Origin: Tannerella sp.
Lineage (GTDB): Bacteria; Bacteroidota; Bacteroidia; Bacteroidales; Tannerellaceae
Assembly: GCA_031257565.1 (NCBI GenBank)
Contig: JAIROL010000226.1
Location: forward strand, 1-45,490
DNA: 45,490 bases
Direction of reading: 5' to 3'
In this document: piece after piece, positions 1 to 45,295 of the stretch
Layout of the letters: every line of letters begins with the position of its first letter
How positions within the stretch are numbered: the stretch's first letter is position 1
The notes under the pieces: model-generated
Told to the model about the DNA's origin: nothing
The model's input: the letters and a program-made list of their open reading frames with translations, nothing else
Database searches by the model: none
Translations under genes and position numbers: made by a program

Positions 1-118
1 CTTATTTTGTATTGCTCTCAACTTGCGCTATCTTTATTCAGGAAATGAAGATAGGCGGCGTTTCGGCAATAAAAATAAGCAAACTTATTTTGTATTGCTC
101 TCAACTTGCGCTATCTTT
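1..118. repeat. 35-bp direct repeat (1-35 and 84-118) upstream of ftsY
   Basis: Positions 1-35 and 84-118 are identical over 35 bases, with an 83-base period. Each copy carries a TTTTG and a TATCTTT element, so the repeat duplicates a promoter. The first copy reads TATCTTTA and the second TATCTTTG, so the second matches the Bacteroidota -7 box better. The 48 bases between the copies show no gene. Confidence 0.9.
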
Positions 119-119
119 G
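67..119 (+). promoter_or_regulatory. ftsY promoter with a hairpin-like -33 region
   Basis: TTTG at 89-92 is followed by 19 bases and then TATCTTTG at 112-119, which matches the Bacteroidota sigma-ABfr consensus TTTG-N19/20-TAnnTTTG. The -33 box lies in an inverted repeat: AAAATAAG at 72-79 pairs with CTTATTTT at 84-91, with outer CAATA/TATTG arms. The phoH promoter has the same arrangement (39344-39392). Start of transcription would be near 126, about 25 bases before the ftsY ATG. Confidence 0.7.
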
Positions 120-150
120 CCGAATAATCAGAGAAAATTGAACATATTAA

Positions 151-1104
151 ATGGGAATATTCGGCTTTTTTAACAAAGAAAAGAAAGAGACATTAGATAA
201 AGGGCTTTCAAAAACAAAAGAAAGCGTTTTCTCCAGGATCGCTCATACGCTTGTAGGGAAAAGTAAAGTTGACGAGGATGTACTTGACGATCTGGAGGAT
301 GCGCTTATATCTTCCGACGTAGGCGTCGAAACGACGCTTAAGATTATAAAGCGCATAGAGAAACGCGCAGCTACCGATAAATATGTTACTACGAGTGAAT
401 TAACGCAATTACTCCGTGAAGAAATCGCCGAATTGTTGATGGAAAACAATTCGCAGGACGCCGAACATTTTGCTATCCCCGAAGCCTCCGGACCTTATGT
501 TATAATGGTAGTAGGGGTCAATGGAGCAGGAAAGACGACGACCATCGGGAAACTTGCATATCAGTTTAAAAAGAACGGATTTAACGTATACCTCGGCGCA
601 GCGGATACGTTCCGTGCCGCTGCAGTAGAACAACTGGTCGTATGGGGCGAGCGGGTAGGGGCGCCTGTTATAAAGCAAAAGATGGGATCTGATCCTGCAT
701 CCGTGGCATTTGATACATTAAGCTCGGCCAAAGCTAATCATGCAGACGTGGTTATCATAGATACCGCCGGTCGCCTTCATAATAAAGTAAATCTGATGAA
801 CGAGCTTACCAAGATAAAAAACGTGATGAAGAAAGTCGTACCCGACGCTCCTCACGAAGTATTGCTTGTGCTTGACGGATCAACAGGACAGAACGCTTTT
901 GAACAGGCAAAGCAGTTTACGGCCGCAACAGAAGTGAATGCGCTGGCTATTACGAAGTTGGATGGTACGGCAAAAGGAGGCGTCGTCATCGGTATATCCG
1001 ATCAATTCCATATACCTGTCAAATATATCGGATTGGGAGAAGGCCTGGAAGATATTCAGGTATTCAGGCGTATGGAGTTTGTTAACTCTTTATTCGGAGA
1101 ATGA
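151..1104 (+). CDS. ftsY: Signal recognition particle receptor FtsY
   Basis: FtsY is the membrane-associated SRP receptor. Its GTPase pairs with Ffh to deliver ribosomes making membrane proteins to the SecYEG translocon. The 317-residue protein is an NG domain with a very short N-terminal extension and no long acidic A domain, as is common in Bacteroidota. Visible motifs are the four-helix N domain (about 20-100), P-loop GVNGAGKTTT (about 121-130), DTFRAAAVEQL (about 151-162), DTAGR (about 204-208) and TKLDGTAKGG (about 268-277). The ATG at 151 follows a recognisable promoter. rimO starts 16 bases after the stop, so the two are probably co-transcribed, an arrangement often seen in Bacteroidales. 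Confidence 0.97.
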   Translation: MGIFGFFNKEKKETLDKGLSKTKESVFSRIAHTLVGKSKVDEDVLDDLEDALISSDVGVETTLKIIKRIEKRAATDKYVTTSELTQLLREEIAELLMENNSQDAEHFAIPEASGPYVIMVVGVNGAGKTTTIGKLAYQFKKNGFNVYLGAADTFRAAAVEQLVVWGERVGAPVIKQKMGSDPASVAFDTLSSAKANHADVVIIDTAGRLHNKVNLMNELTKIKNVMKKVVPDAPHEVLLVLDGSTGQNAFEQAKQFTAATEVNALAITKLDGTAKGGVVIGISDQFHIPVKYIGLGEGLEDIQVFRRMEFVNSLFGE

Positions 1105-37412: not shown

Positions 37413-38345
37413 TTATTTGTCGTCCAGGAATGTTGTCACATTCTTTTTGATACGCGCAGCTATATCTTCCCCTTCGCTTTTAACGAATTTTTCGCCGGTG
37501 ATGCGTTCGAAAAGTTCGACGTACCTGTTTGTTATGCTTTCAACAATAGCCGGCGTCATTTCCGGCGCCCGTTGTCCTGCTTTTCCCTGAAAACCGTTAT
37601 CCATCAGCCATTCACGAACAAACTCTTTGGACAATTGTTTTTGCGGTTCGCTTTTTTCGAAACGTTCTTTGTATCCTTCCGAATAGAAATAACGCGATGA
37701 GTCCGGCGTATGGATTTCATCCATCAGGTAGATCGTTCCGTTATGCTTTCCGAATTCATATTTCGTATCCACGAGGATCAGTCCGCGTTCTGCGGCTATC
37801 TCCGTACCTCGTTTAAAAAGTCTGAGCGTATATTTTTCAAGAACCTCATAATCTTCGGGCGATACAAGTCCCTGCGCGATGATCTCCTCTTTTGAAATAT
37901 CCTCGTCATGAGCGCCCTGTTCCGCTTTGGTCGTAGGCGTCACAATCGGTTCCGGAAACTTTTCATTTTCACGCATGCCGTCGGGAATCTTCACTCCGCA
38001 GATCTCTCGCGCGCCGTTTTTATAGGAACGCCAGGCGCTTCCGCACAGGTAGCCGCGTACAATCATTTCGACGGGAAATCCTTCACAACGAACGCCGACG
38101 GTAACCATCGGATCCGGCGTCGCCAGTTTCCAGTTTGGGCATATATCCCGGGTAGCGTCCAGAAACTTAGCCGCTATCTGGTTCAGCATCTGTCCTTTAT
38201 AAGGAATACCTTCGGGCAGCACGACGTCAAATGCCGATATACGGTCTGTTGCCACCATGACTAATTTTTCGTCGTTGATGTTGTAAACGTCGCGTACTTT
38301 ACCGTGGTAAACGCTTTTTTGTTTCGGAAAATAGAAATCAGTCAT
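37413..38345 (-). CDS. purC: SAICAR synthase
   Basis: PurC joins CAIR and aspartate with ATP in purine synthesis. The 310-residue protein has [40 protein letters not shown] and the [12 protein letters not shown]...[12 protein letters not shown] region. I chose ATG 38345 ([11 protein letters not shown]), since the ATGACTGA overlap with the phoH stop (38340-38338) points to coupling. A start at 38360 would add five residues. Confidence 0.95.
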
Positions 38346-39330
38346 TGTTAACGCTTTCATTGCTATTTTGTTTTAGAGTTTTTAGTTCCGTGTCTTTTTT
38401 CTCCTTCTTTTCGTATGCCTCGACAATCCGTTGTACGAGCTTATGGCGAACGATATCCTTTTTCTCGAACCGGATGCGTCCGATACCGGATACATGTTCG
38501 AGTATTTCCATGGCCTGCACAAGTCCCGACTTTACTGTCGGCGGCAGGTCTATCTGCGTCACATCGCCTGTTACGATCATTTTGGCGTTTGTACCAAGTC
38601 GCGTCAGGAACATTTTTATCTGGTGGGTCGTCGTATTCTGCGCCTCGTCGAGAATGATAATGGCGTCGTTCAGCGTACGTCCGCGCATAAATGCGAGCGG
38701 AGCGATCTGAATTGTATTGTTTTCCATATATTCTTTCAGTTTGGCCGCCGGAATCATTTCCTGAAGGGCGTCGTACAACGGCTGAAGATACGGATCCAGC
38801 TTGTCTTTCATTTCTCCGGGCAGGAAACCCAGTTTTTCTCCCGCTTCCACAGCCGGGCGGCTCAGGATCAGGCGGCGCGCCTGTTTGTTTTTCAACGCCC
38901 TGACAGCCAGCGCTATCGCGACGTAAGTTTTACCCGAACCCGCAGGACCTACGGCAAAAACCAGGTCATTATCGTCAAAGCTCCTGACAAGCTTCTGCTG
39001 GTTTTCGGAACGCGCCGTGATTGCTTTGCCGTTCATTCCGTATATAATAAGGTTGGCCTGCTTTTCAAACTCGATCCTTTCGCCTTTGATGATGCCGAGT
39101 ATGATCTCTTCGGTAAGAGAATTATACGATTCGCAGTATTTCTCTATTTCGCGTATCTTTTTCAGAAATTCTTCCGACTCGTCGGCTTCCCCGATTACTT
39201 TCATGACATTACCACGCGCTACGATCCGTAGCTTCGGAAACAGATTCTTAATAAGCTGCAGGTGGGAATTGTTGACGCCATAGAATGTCAGCGGATCCAC
39301 GCTTTCTAATATATATATTCTTTCTATCAT
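38338..39330 (-). CDS. PhoH-family ATPase
   Basis: The 330-residue protein matches the PhoH family: an N-terminal KH-like part ([20 protein letters not shown]) and a P-loop domain with [19 protein letters not shown] (about 150), the [19 protein letters not shown] Walker B region and GDVTQIDLP. PhoH ATPases are linked to phosphate starvation and RNA metabolism, and this form (PhoL-like) is the housekeeping type. ATG 39330 gives [10 protein letters not shown], and the frame upstream is open into the promoter. It heads the phoH-purC-aroE operon. Confidence 0.92.
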
Positions 39331-39343
39331 AATATGGGACAAA

Positions 39344-39366
39344 TGTAGTGCAAATCGAATACAATA
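39344..39366. repeat. Left copy of a 23-bp direct repeat flanking AbiE
   Basis: Positions 39344-39366 are identical to 41235-41257 over 23 bases (begins TGTAGTGCAAATCG, ends ATACAATA). This copy is part of the phoH promoter. Confidence 0.9.
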
Positions 39367-39392
39367 CAAAATAAGCTTGCTTATTTTTATTG
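39344..39392 (-). promoter_or_regulatory. phoH promoter with palindromic -33 region
   Basis: On the minus strand the -7 box TACATTTG is preceded by TTTTG with a 19-base spacer. The -33 box is part of a perfect 9-bp inverted repeat, AAAATAAGC and GCTTATTTT around TT (39368-39387), with CAATA and TATTG outside. The ftsY promoter has the same element. Confidence 0.65.
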
Positions 39393-39425
39393 TTGAGATG
39401 CAGCCTGCATTCAACGAAGTTAAAT

Positions 39426-40424
39426 CTACATACCTCTGTATTTTTCATCAAACCGCCATAAAGGTTGTTGCAATAACTTGATGTTTTGAATGACTTCATC
39501 TAATGCCGGTAAAGCGCTTGCTTCAAACATTAATTGCCTCAACTCGCTATTGTACGCACGATAAATAGCGGGCAGATTCAATGTTTGCTCTGTCTCGGCA
39601 AATATTTTTGTCTTGGAAATGGGTTGATGGGATTGTGAATTTTTGTACAATCCATCTTCGCCGGTTACACGCTGCATGGCTTCCGTAAATTCATCGGATT
39701 GAATAAAATTCCGGTATTCCGAAACATTCAGTAGCCGGTAAATATCATACACGTCCCGGATATGTTTGGCGATGAGCATCCCATAATCATCATTATACGA
39801 CAGTCTTGTCAATCTCGAAATCTTGTCGCACAACGTTCGCTTCGGGTCTATCGTCTGAACTTCAAAAGCATCAAGTCCGAAATTGGCTAAAATATCGTTG
39901 CGTCCTGCTGTTTGCAGGTATTTGGCAATAACCGGCTGTATCTGTCGCTTTTGCATAGGGTAATACATCGTCAATTTGTCTTCCAATGTACAGCATTTGA
40001 TTTCCACTTCCGGATTTTCTTTCAATCCGGCGCTTTCGTAATGCGTGTCATACGAAAGAGCCAGTTTGCGGAAGTCACCTCCGGTTTTGGACAATCCCTC
40101 CATATACATTTCCTTGTTGTTTTCGATGACAAAATGCGAAATATGACGAGTCAATGTTTTTTCTGCCTGTTTGGAAGAAACCGGGTTTCCGGAGAAGACA
40201 AAAATATCCAAATCTTCTGAAAATCTATTGATTATATTGTATGCCTTGGAAAGCGAAGTCCCACCCTTAAAGTAAATCCTGCCTGAAAAATCGGAAAATA
40301 CCAATTCCTTGAGTATCTTGGATACCCAATAATCTTTCTCGACATGCGACTGTTCATATCCGAAATGGTTGGACGTCAATTCAACCAATTCTTTGAAAGC
40401 ATCACCGTGTAAATGTAAATTCAT
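39426..40424 (-). CDS. AbiEii/AbiGii-type nucleotidyltransferase toxin
   Basis: AbiEii toxins are DNA-polymerase-beta-like nucleotidyltransferases of type IV toxin-antitoxin systems that protect against phage by abortive infection. The 332-residue protein has the core motif G-G-T-S-L-S-K with DLD (FKGGTSLSKAYNIINRFSED, then LDIFV), the later KLTMYYPMQKRQ region and KRTLCDKISRLT. The antitoxin gene lies upstream on the same strand with 9 bases between. The gene is intact. Its GC content is lower than that of phoH. Confidence 0.9.
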   Translation of the reverse strand: MNLHLHGDAFKELVELTSNHFGYEQSHVEKDYWVSKILKELVFSDFSGRIYFKGGTSLSKAYNIINRFSEDLDIFVFSGNPVSSKQAEKTLTRHISHFVIENNKEMYMEGLSKTGGDFRKLALSYDTHYESAGLKENPEVEIKCCTLEDKLTMYYPMQKRQIQPVIAKYLQTAGRNDILANFGLDAFEVQTIDPKRTLCDKISRLTRLSYNDDYGMLIAKHIRDVYDIYRLLNVSEYRNFIQSDEFTEAMQRVTGEDGLYKNSQSHQPISKTKIFAETEQTLNLPAIYRAYNSELRQLMFEASALPALDEVIQNIKLLQQPLWRFDEKYRGM

Positions 40425-40433
40425 ACATGCAGA

Positions 40434-41129
40434 TTATTTATATGGAAAATCAAACCGTGTTGTCGGGCAAAGGGTGGCTGCAAGTTGTTTCTCCAAATCC
40501 CTATTATCGTTTTCGTGTAACATGCAGCCAAGTATTTTCCTGACCCTCGGCGGATAATTTCTCGACAAAGAGACTGCTCTTTCGAGGTTTGCATGTTCCA
40601 GTGACGAGACATGCAACTTGAAAATTCTCTCATAAGCCGCTTGAGGACTTGTACCGGGTATGTGGCGACAATCTTTGATTGCATCCAAAATCCGTATGAG
40701 ATGTAATGTTTTACTGTCGTCGGGAACATCTACATACGCTTTTACACACTCGACGGACAATCTTTCAAACCTGAACGCACGTACCGGATAATGGACGGCG
40801 ATGGTAATTACCGACGGGACTTGCTCCGTCAATGACATTTTATTATAAATGTATGCACCCGTCAAATAACCGTTCAATTTACCGGTCAGGTAATTTAACT
40901 GTTCATCCTGATAAACGGGAAGATTTCCCAAACCCAGACTTGACGGTTTGGGTTTGTAGTATGCCCCTTTTTCAATCCGGATTAATTTATTTGCTTTGGA
41001 TAATTCGGAAAGGACTACCGCTACATTGGCAAACTTGGACAATGGAAAAGCCAAGTCTTTGAACGTGAATATTTTACCTTCTGGAATCCGGTCTATTTGC
41101 CTTTGTATGTCCGATTTAAATGACTGCAT
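40434..41129 (-). CDS. AbiEi-type antitoxin (DUF6088-like)
   Basis: The 231-residue protein has an N-terminal winged-helix part (MQSFKSDIQRQIDRIPEGKI, then FTFKDLAFPLSKFANVAVVL) and a C-terminal AbiEi-like region (GYLTGAYIYNKMSLTEQVPS). AbiEi antitoxins repress their own operon and neutralise AbiEii without direct binding. The frame is open to 41150, but the -7 box overlaps that part, so ATG 41129 is the better start. The operator-like palindrome upstream fits autoregulation. Confidence 0.85.
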   Translation of the reverse strand: MQSFKSDIQRQIDRIPEGKIFTFKDLAFPLSKFANVAVVLSELSKANKLIRIEKGAYYKPKPSSLGLGNLPVYQDEQLNYLTGKLNGYLTGAYIYNKMSLTEQVPSVITIAVHYPVRAFRFERLSVECVKAYVDVPDDSKTLHLIRILDAIKDCRHIPGTSPQAAYERIFKLHVSSLEHANLERAVSLSRNYPPRVRKILGCMLHENDNRDLEKQLAATLCPTTRFDFPYK

Positions 41130-41148
41130 AAACTGAATTTTTTTCTGC

Positions 41149-41190
41149 AAAGATACGAATTAATTATGTATTTACATGTAAATACATAAT
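41149..41190 (-). promoter_or_regulatory. AbiE promoter with a 28-bp perfect palindrome
   Basis: On the minus strand the -7 box TATCTTTG (41156-41149) lies 20 bases before ATG 41129. Positions 41163-41190 form a perfect 28-bp palindrome (arm ATTATGTATTTACA) covering the -33 position. This is the expected place for an AbiEi-type autoregulatory operator. Confidence 0.75.
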
Positions 41191-41234
41191 ATTTTCAGTT
41201 ATATACTCTAACTGCTTGACCTTTGAATAATTGG

Positions 41235-41257
41235 TGTAGTGCAAATCGAATACAATA
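41235..41257. repeat. Right copy of a 23-bp direct repeat flanking AbiE
   Basis: Identical to 39344-39366 over 23 bases. It lies upstream of the AbiE promoter and before a truncated ATPase gene, outside any coding region. Confidence 0.9.
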
Positions 41258-41331
41258 AAATCCGAAAATTTATTATATTTTACGGATTGAATTCCAAATT
41301 TATTGTATTTTTGCAGTATAATAAAGTTGTT

Positions 41332-41496
41332 ATGATACATAGAATATTAGAAAATACGGTTCGAGATAAGTTGAACACAGGTAAAGCAATCATATTGACG
41401 GGAGCCGGACAGGTGGGAAAAACAACTTTGGTCAAAGAACTTTTTAAAGGTTCTTCTGTTGTTTCTCCTGATAATATGGAAGAGTTTTTATTGTGA
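41332..41496 (+). pseudogene. Truncated AAA-type ATPase (DUF4143 family start)
   Basis: Fifty-four codons remain: MIHRILENTVRDKLNTGKAI, then ILTGAGQVGKTTLVKELFKG. Family members are about 370-400 residues with P-loop GxRQVGKTT. Here the arginine is a glycine (GAGQVGKTT). The frame ends at a TGA (41494-41496), and only 92 bases remain before the convergent permease gene. A -7 box TATTTTTG is at 41306-41313. I call it a dead remnant. The gap 41497-41588 shows no other gene. Confidence 0.75.
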
Positions 41497-41588
41497 CGGC
41501 GATTATGAGTTTTACTCGTCTGTCAAGTATTTTTTTAACTAATAAGAGCGTTCCCGGGAGAAATTCAAAGAAATTGAACGTATTGTTT

Positions 41589-42845
41589 TTATTCAAATTT
41601 TATAGACTTTGCCGGTTCTATTTTTGAAATAAAATACGACGGCGCAATCATCATAAGCAGCGATACGGCAAGGGAACCGATATTGATAAGAAGCAGGGAT
41701 ACCCAGTTCAGGTCAATGGGAACGGAATCCAGATAGTACGTTTCCGGATCGAGTTTCAACCAGTGGAAATGAGATTGTAAAAAACATAACGACACGCCGA
41801 TCACATTTCCCCAGAACATTCCTTTCACGATCATGAAAAACGATACGTAGAGGAACACTTTCCGTATGCTGTAATTATTTTCGCCGAGCGCTTTCAGTAT
41901 GCCGATCATGTTGGTTCGCTCGAGGATGATAATCAGAAGTCCGGAGATCATGGTAAAGCCGGAGACAAGGATCATCAATATCAGAATGATTGCCACATTC
42001 GAATCCAGAATACCGAGCCAGTTGAAAATCATCGGATTGAGTTCCTTGATGGAACGTATATAATAGATGTTACCCAGACGGTCTTTCTTGTCGATAAGCG
42101 AGAAATACAATTCCTCCGTCAGTTCGTCGAGACGGTTGTAATTATCAATGAAGATCCCTACTCCGCTGGCCATATTCTCCTCCCATCCGTTGATCCGGCG
42201 TATTTGCTTGACGTCGCAGAAAGCAAAAAGCTTGTCATAATCGGAGAATCCGGTATCATAGATGCCTGCGATGTAAAATTTGCGCATTCGTACATCCTGG
42301 TTATTTACATAAAAACAGGCGACAAACGAGTCGCCGCACCCAAGATGCAGCATTTTGGCCATATGGCGTGATATCAGCGCCTGATTACTGATTTTTATCG
42401 AATCGATACGGATCATTTGTCCCTCTACCAGATGGTTTCCCAGAAACGTCGTATCAAAATCGGCGTCCACTCCTTTCATCACGATTCCCTGAAAATCAGT
42501 TTCCGTTTTAATGATACCCGGCTTGGTAGCAAAAACCTCTATGTGACGTACTCCCTCTGTACGCATGAGCGCATCGCGGAGCGAGTCGCCGATGGCGATA
42601 GGGACCGCTTCGTAGGAGATATTATTATCGAAGTTTGCCAGTTGGATATGCGCTCCGAAGCCGATGACTTTATTACGAACCTCTTTTTTGAAACCGACAA
42701 CGATGGCTACCGACACGATCATCACTGCCAGTCCGATCGCAATTCCGGCTATGGCGATGCGGACGACCGGAGGCGTCGCTCGTTTGTTGTCGCCTTTCTC
42801 TTTGGAAAAATGAATCCTTTTTGCTAAGAAAAATTCAAAGTTCAT
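41589..42845 (-). CDS. FtsX/LolE-like ABC transporter permease
   Basis: The 418-residue protein has a first membrane helix (about 36-57, VRIAIAGIAIGLAVMIVSVA), a large periplasmic MacB-like domain (about 60-270) and three C-terminal helices of the FtsX type (LVSGFTMISGLLIIILERTN). Such permeases release outer-membrane lipoproteins (LolE/LolC) or export other cargo with a separate ATPase. No ATPase gene is next to it. I chose ATG 42845 (MNFEFFLAKRI). Confidence 0.88.
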   Translation of the reverse strand: MNFEFFLAKRIHFSKEKGDNKRATPPVVRIAIAGIAIGLAVMIVSVAIVVGFKKEVRNKVIGFGAHIQLANFDNNISYEAVPIAIGDSLRDALMRTEGVRHIEVFATKPGIIKTETDFQGIVMKGVDADFDTTFLGNHLVEGQMIRIDSIKISNQALISRHMAKMLHLGCGDSFVACFYVNNQDVRMRKFYIAGIYDTGFSDYDKLFAFCDVKQIRRINGWEENMASGVGIFIDNYNRLDELTEELYFSLIDKKDRLGNIYYIRSIKELNPMIFNWLGILDSNVAIILILMILVSGFTMISGLLIIILERTNMIGILKALGENNYSIRKVFLYVSFFMIVKGMFWGNVIGVSLCFLQSHFHWLKLDPETYYLDSVPIDLNWVSLLLINIGSLAVSLLMMIAPSYFISKIEPAKSIKFE

Positions 42846-42913
42846 GTTAAAACAGTCCATCACGCGAGGTCGTTCGTTTTCGGCGCTTCGCTCTCTTTAT
42901 TTTTAATATTTAA

Positions 42914-44689: not shown

Positions 44690-44935
44690 ATGTTTTTTGA
44701 TATGACGGAATTGATTATAAAAAATGATATAGAAAAAAAGAAGATGGACGGATTGCTTCTTTTTCTGAAATCGTGGGATATCGAAGCGGAAATAAAACCG
44801 GCAAAGAAAACTGCAAAAGATAAACGTATTGCGGAATTTAAACAGGCTCTGAAAGAAACAAGGGAAATGGCGGAAAATATTGCCGCAGGCAAAGATGACT
44901 ACGAAACAATGGACGAGTTTTTGAAAAGGTTATAG
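44690..44935 (+). CDS. Small antitoxin-like protein paired with a RelE toxin
   Basis: This 81-residue, highly charged protein (FFDMTELIIKNDIEKKKMDG; KKTAKDKRIAEFKQALKETR) is followed by a RelE-like toxin gene 10 bases downstream. Size, acidic/basic helix pattern and position suit an antitoxin, though no known DNA-binding motif is plain. ATG 44690 or 44702 could start it. It may be related to the RelB/DUF2683 group, but I am not sure. Confidence 0.65.
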   Translation: MFFDMTELIIKNDIEKKKMDGLLLFLKSWDIEAEIKPAKKTAKDKRIAEFKQALKETREMAENIAAGKDDYETMDEFLKRL

Positions 44936-44944
44936 TTTGATTAT

Positions 44945-45295
44945 ATGCTATTTAAGCCGACAAAACAATTTGAAAAATCTTTCAAAGCTTTGTATAAAAA
45001 ATTTCCGTCTTTATCTTCGGATTATCAGAAATTTGAGACGTCATTTTCGGAAAATCCCCAACTCGGAGTTGATTTAGGTGACGGATTTCGTAAAGTTCGT
45101 ATAGCCATACAATCCAAAAATAAAGGAAAAAGTGGAGGCGGAATTATTACTTATGATATGTTTGTAAAACAACAGGAAAATGTAATCATATTAGTTGATA
45201 TTTACGATAAAAACGAAAAAGAAACTCTATCGGAGAAAAAATATACTGATATTCTTAAACGGTTTTTAGAAAATGAACAGGATACATTTGAATAA
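44945..45295 (+). CDS. RelE/ParE-type toxin
   Basis: The 116-residue protein fits the RelE toxin fold: N-terminal helices (FKPTKQFEKSFKALYKKFPS), a middle (FRKVRIAIQSKNKGKSGGGI) with basic residues typical of the RNA contact strand, and NVIILVDIYDKNEKETLSEK at the end. RelE enzymes cut mRNA at the ribosome. It is the second gene of the pair. The gap after it (45296-45449) holds only repeats and a promoter. Confidence 0.8.
   Translation: MLFKPTKQFEKSFKALYKKFPSLSSDYQKFETSFSENPQLGVDLGDGFRKVRIAIQSKNKGKSGGGIITYDMFVKQQENVIILVDIYDKNEKETLSEKKYTDILKRFLENEQDTFE

Follow-up and report, generated by a model that had tools for sequence, protein, structure and literature searches.

The window, the whole 45,490-nucleotide stretch of Tannerella sp. 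DNA that was analyzed, contains an AbiEi/AbiEii gene pair and an ATPase remnant between phoH and a lolE-like gene, and an identical 23-bp sequence lies on either side of the AbiE pair. The features that bear on the origin of this arrangement are as follows, the -33 and -7 boxes being assigned by the promoter consensus.

45..121, minus strand: second full hairpin repeat in the window (99.3 bits), in front of ftsY (151-1104, plus strand)
38338..39330, minus strand: phoH (PF02562, E 5.1e-92), with its ATG at 39330
39338..39414, plus strand: complete hairpin repeat, TGTAG variant (covariance model R1, 96.4 bits, E 5.9e-24, model positions 1-78)
39340..39369, minus strand: phoH promoter as read from the sequence, TTG (39369-39367), N19, TACATTTG (39347-39340)
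39344..39366, plus strand: left copy of the 23-mer, within the complete hairpin repeat 39338-39414
39426..40424, minus strand: AbiEii nucleotidyltransferase toxin (PF08843, E 7.6e-27; PADLOC AbiEii, 8e-72)
39426..41195, minus strand: extent of the AbiE cassette in common with the sister-species copies
40434..41129, minus strand: AbiEi antitoxin (PADLOC AbiEi, 3.4e-35; DUF6088 at 22.4 bits, below the 25-bit cut-off)
41148..41190, minus strand: putative AbiE promoter, -7 box TATCTTTG (41155-41148) and a perfect 28-bp palindrome (41163-41190)
41235..41257, plus strand: right copy of the 23-mer, a truncated hairpin repeat without a -7 or -33 box
41258..41497, plus strand: AAA ATPase unit with an internal deletion (54-aa frame, 41332-41496; AAA_14, 6.6e-5, below cut-off)
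41589..42863, minus strand: lolE-like FtsX permease (PF02687, 3.9e-17), the neighbor of phoH in seven relatives

The presence of an AbiEi/AbiEii pair between the 23-mers, as given in the preliminary description, is borne out by the Pfam and PADLOC matches, and by these matches the pair is an AbiE type IV toxin-antitoxin system of a known kind, with two adjacent genes on the same strand and an inverted repeat at the promoter. The longest open reading frame of AbiEi (40434-41150, minus strand) starts at a TTG at 41150, and because this codon falls within the -7 box, the ATG at 41129 is preferred as the likely start. The AbiE promoter overlaps the 28-bp palindrome, a candidate operator for AbiEi, which is common to one of the two close homologues (L047) and decayed in the other (L046); autoregulation by AbiEi via inverted repeats has been described (PMC7319586).

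Matches to AbiEii were found in 16 of the 41 genomes of the genus, only two of them close (86% and 82% identity). At the DNA level, L046 is 86.0% identical over 1773 bp (39426-41195) and L047 83.2% over 1761 bp (39436-41195), and the similarity ends there; their flanks are other than those here, and the 23-mer bounds AbiE in the fetched flanks of neither (0/2). An integrase (PF13102, PF17293) lies beside AbiEii in L046 and an HTH_17 gene on the other side in L047, and a more distant DUF6088-AbiEii pair in Parabacteroides distasonis (NZ_OY725747.1) is next to mobABC and tra genes. Homologues beside mobile-element genes are another trait in common with known AbiE systems, one of which is reported to stabilize an integrative element in Streptococcus suis (PMC11062541), whereas here no mobile-element gene adjoins and the pair is placed between phoH and lolE. 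No solved-structure relative of AbiEii was found by sequence at E 0.001, and viral contigs contained one relative, 50% identical. Elsewhere in the window, 44690-45295 holds two small neighboring genes that are possibly another toxin-antitoxin pair; the second resembles RelE weakly (E 0.0024, under the cut-off).

The exact direct repeat is real, as its two copies match at 23 of 23 bases (96% identity if extended to 26 bp) and no such repeat arose in 100 dinucleotide shuffles of the window (0/100). The assembly of 4,465,361 bases (4.47 Mb) contains only these two exact copies, a third place having three mismatches, and the exact 23-mer has no match in the genome_contigs collection. With up to three mismatches it is present in 7 of the 41 genus genomes, mostly at other loci, and there it opens a longer conserved stretch. 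The 23-mer forms the promoter-side half of a hairpin repeat, some 77 bp long, that is dispersed through the genome. The left copy is, as originally stated, part of the phoH promoter, which lies on the minus strand of the complete repeat, yet the 23-mer itself stops short of both boxes; in relatives a CAAAnnTA box is found at the same place before phoH. AbiE is indeed flanked by the 23-mers, but the left one does not abut it, since the rest of the hairpin repeat (39367-39414) intervenes. The loss of the -33 and -7 context from the right copy was also read correctly, neither box being present. This copy is undetected by the full covariance model and ends exactly where the ATPase unit begins, and a second half of it was not seen, by eye, beyond that unit.

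The repeat belongs to a large family. The covariance model, built from 22 rows that represent 21 distinct copies (the copy in the window was entered twice), gave at least 82 matches in this genome (G000), where only 116 candidates were scored and some matches arise by construction, several model rows having come from the same genome. A blastn search of this genome with 39330-39425 returned 63 rows at E 10, of which 58 were at E ≤0.001. Head-to-tail arrays with a unit of about 85 bp are common, and the spacing is 84-86 bp in several. The contig start itself appears to lie within a repeat array in front of ftsY (1-121), where positions 1-30 match weakly and in part (E 1.3), which suggests that the contig end truncates one more copy, and such arrays may break the assembly.

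By the covariance model, the repeat is present in 15 of the 41 genus genomes and in 11 of 149 genomes sampled across the order, namely this genome and ten in eight other families, and the lack of a match in the remaining 138 makes the family patchy. A degenerate pattern retrieved 24 stretches in named records, including Muribaculaceae, Prevotella, Bacteroidaceae, and 'Tannerella sp. Ct408_bin163' MAGs. Nothing in Rfam came near the gathering score across 39000-41700, and a copy from one genus genome (G022) had no match in the plasmid collection. The family was not recognized in the literature searched, for which sequence strings are poor queries, so absence from print is not implied.

The repeat consensus forms one long hairpin of 24 pairs, in which 96.4% of 528 cells are paired compared with 43-52% when the partners are slid, and 15 of the 24 pairs differ on both sides, a compensatory change with a covariation score that was reached by 0 of 500 shuffles, the structure having been derived from the same alignment as was tested and related rows inflating the covariation counts. 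Terminal inverted repeats, which are a MITE criterion, are present in the outer helix (columns 5-11 with 73-79, 96.8% of cells paired). Upstream of frr (L242-L244), the repeat occupies the same position in this genome and in those of two other species (G034 and G033), its arms differing among the three yet still matching, so that long-term persistence is possible.

The position of the repeat relative to genes is strongly one-sided. Among 37 arrays in fetched loci of this genome (62 copies, 16 arrays being multi-copy), a start codon, counted as the start of a long frame, lies within 45 nt on the left, or promoter, side of 23 arrays compared with 5 on the right, and within 100 nt for 29 and 11, respectively. 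The corresponding counts are 17 and 2 (≤45 nt) and 21 and 4 (≤100 nt) for 23 arrays from other genomes, and 16 and 1 (≤45 nt) and 23 and 2 (≤100 nt) for 28 arrays from named records; in a pass with a looser rule, from which two rows were dropped, a start codon was within 40 nt in 24 of 36 arrays. CAAA is found at the left edge in 32 of the 37 arrays of this genome and in all 23 from other genomes, the named-record set being excluded from this count as its selecting pattern itself contains CAAA. The fuller motif TTG-N17-21-TAnnTTTG is present in 30/37 first copies versus 1/28 inner copies in this genome, and in 16/25 versus 3/11 in other genomes. At phoH, ftsY, and frr, a -7-like box stands about as far from the start codon in relatives without the repeat there (a comparison by eye in which a few relatives are without a clear box), and on the sequences compared the edge of the repeat is placed on the native -7 box at these three genes. 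Wide occurrence of the repeats as a common promoter element, which the preliminary description named as refuting its own reading, was thus seen in part, for the repeat family in this genome but not for the exact 23-mer.

By analogy, the hairpin repeat may work like a promoter-bearing MITE or REP-like element. It is similar to the REP/BIME sequences associated with RAYT in being short, dispersed, palindromic, extragenic, and sometimes tandem, and in having GTAG at the base of the TGTAG variant, and it differs in being longer (77 bp) and promoter-placed. Membership of the RAYT-REP group was rejected, as Y1_Tnp (PF01797) has no match in G000 and occurs in only 3 of 15 repeat-bearing genomes versus 14 of 26 non-bearing ones, all of these being incomplete assemblies. 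In a test for target-site duplication, another MITE criterion, the same 5-mer was present at both edges in 3 of 14 usable arrays (shuffled mean 1.6, p ~0.12), 10 of 24 arrays having been dropped for want of a linker match. The nearest described case from the Bacteroidales in the literature searched is the BrickBuilt MITE of Porphyromonas gingivalis, which has a 23-nt unit repeated without spacers, lies 49-591 nt from genes, and is reported to have promoter activity (PMC4596501). Both are dispersed Bacteroidales elements that contain tandem repeats, whereas the unit here is a hairpin of about 85 bp that is often within 45 nt of a start codon, a distinction drawn from the published description. 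The Correia (NEMIS) elements of Neisseria are dispersed inverted-repeat elements that are able to supply promoters. The hairpin repeat is likewise a dispersed inverted repeat at promoters, but it is from another phylum and of another organization, and its edge coincides with an existing -7 box. NEMIS has been named as a MITE (PMC3733652).

What, then, of AbiE? In 7 of the 29 relatives fetched (L005-L009, L011, and L016), phoH is directly beside lolE without AbiE, ATPase, or 23-mer, and AbiE, together with the ATPase remnant, is an addition between the two genes, as had been supposed; for the remaining 22, the fetched stretch did not show lolE, owing to contig ends or other neighbors. The accompanying proposal of a mobile AbiE cassette with the 23-mer as its footprint or defined site was not supported. 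An empty site with one copy of the 23-mer was expected from it and was seen at 0 of the 7 phoH-lolE junctions (those that could be judged among the 29 relatives), all seven phoH contigs being without the 23-mer even with three mismatches; moreover, the 23-mer is part of a dispersed repeat and AbiE homology ends elsewhere. The 23-mer is therefore probably not an attachment, landing, or exit site of AbiE. Direct repeats around a defense module are easily taken for attachment sites, and here, where they are parts of a genome-wide repeat, they are a trap for automated island calls. The same repeats without AbiE between them, the other finding named at the outset as refuting the proposal, were found in part, in that G034 has near-identical 23-mers 82 bp apart, but at another locus. 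This genome, the nearest relative by frr (98%) and ftsY (94%), has two tandem TGTAG copies, the second truncated, and only the promoter half at ftsY, and it gave no phoH match.

The ATPase unit at the right copy is 88% identical to C21:3645-3842 and 91% to C21:4796-4842, the copy in C21 having a 380-aa open frame that starts at a TTG. The left end of the unit is at 41257-41259 in three of four genomic homologues (C21, G061, and G027), none of which has the 23-mer upstream, and the fourth (G035) matches only further in. The AAA ATPase gene (41258-41497; C21:3645-4842; G061:C120; G027:C312) recurs in unrelated flanks, each time preceded by a common hairpin (AATCCG...CGGATT) with sharp limits, as if gene and leader moved together.

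We consider it fairly likely that a tandem array once stood at phoH, that AbiE inserted between two of its copies, and that the second of these is truncated by the ATPase unit; both the array and the sequence of steps are inferred. One complete repeat copy forms the phoH promoter, the AbiE cassette, which elsewhere is beside integrase or conjugation genes, would have inserted between this copy and its neighbor in the array, and the ATPase unit, which adjoins the second copy, would have truncated it. The 23-mers would then be identical because they were neighbors in one array and not because they are attachment sites. A single former array best accounts for two identical copies of a rare type at a distance of 1.9 kb: identical 23-mers were found in 25 of 42 within-array pairs versus 163 of 2236 pairs drawn from different arrays (39 arrays, among which one pair or more has an identical upstream context and may be duplicates), and the six listed copies of the TGTAG/TATAG type differ mutually by 3-10 bases where the two flanking AbiE do not differ. 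The right copy is preceded by CTTTGAATAATTGG, like the linker before inner array copies; for most inner copies this linker ends in GAATAAA, and TTTGAATAATTGG stands before the right copy. TTGAATAA has 9 occurrences among the 90,980 positions of the window, counting both strands. The copy number in this genome, tandem spacing, the tandem TGTAG copies and the half copy at ftsY in G034, the left ends of the ATPase homologues, and the other flanks and mobile-element neighbors of the AbiE homologues also count for a former array. Against it, no sampled relative has an array at phoH without AbiE, the nearest relative, G034, gave no phoH match, the TTGAATAA resemblance is short and exceeds the usual linker by 3-4 bases, and the right copy is missed by the full model and shows no second half, by eye, past the ATPase unit.

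Other origins of the two copies are conceivable. Integration and excision of AbiE at the 23-mer by a site-specific recombinase acting in trans would account for an exact direct repeat on both sides and for the absence of AbiE from seven relatives with phoH next to lolE. It is nevertheless very improbable given that those seven junctions are without the 23-mer, that AbiE homology stops at 39426/39436 and 41195 in two homologues with other flanks, that half of a hairpin repeat separates the left 23-mer from AbiE, and that there is no integrase or recombinase among the genes scanned at 38338-42863; the attachment-site reading was rejected on the junctions and the homologue flanks. AbiE might instead have been carried on incoming DNA with its own repeat copy and joined by homologous recombination with the copy at phoH, for which so abundant a repeat could serve as homology and which would leave direct repeats on both sides, but an identity of only 23-26 bp and the absence of the 23-mer from the fetched flanks of the two close homologues make this rather unlikely. 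That the two copies were inserted independently, or that the right one arrived with the ATPase unit, would fit the exact start of the unit at the end of that copy; it is improbable because ATPase homologues in C21, G061, and G027 are without an upstream 23-mer and separately placed TGTAG copies differ by 3-10 bases.

The promoter-placed repeat family is the more interesting object here. Tentatively, and with some doubt, it might be a mobile promoter module that inserts on -7 boxes, many of them of housekeeping genes, replaces the upstream half of the promoter, builds up tandem arrays in which a complete -7 box remains only in the gene-proximal copy, and preserves its hairpin through compensatory substitutions, all without RAYT; with the landing of AbiE, such an array would be a site where foreign genes can dock next to core genes. 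The family raises the question of how dispersed DNA is brought precisely onto the -7 box in several families of the Bacteroidales, and whether expression changes as a result. Four arrays of this genome (L079, L083, L088, and L101) have a common right flank, GAATAAAGTTACTA, which is longer (GAATAAAGTTACTATGTTTG) in three of them and is perhaps part of a larger element.
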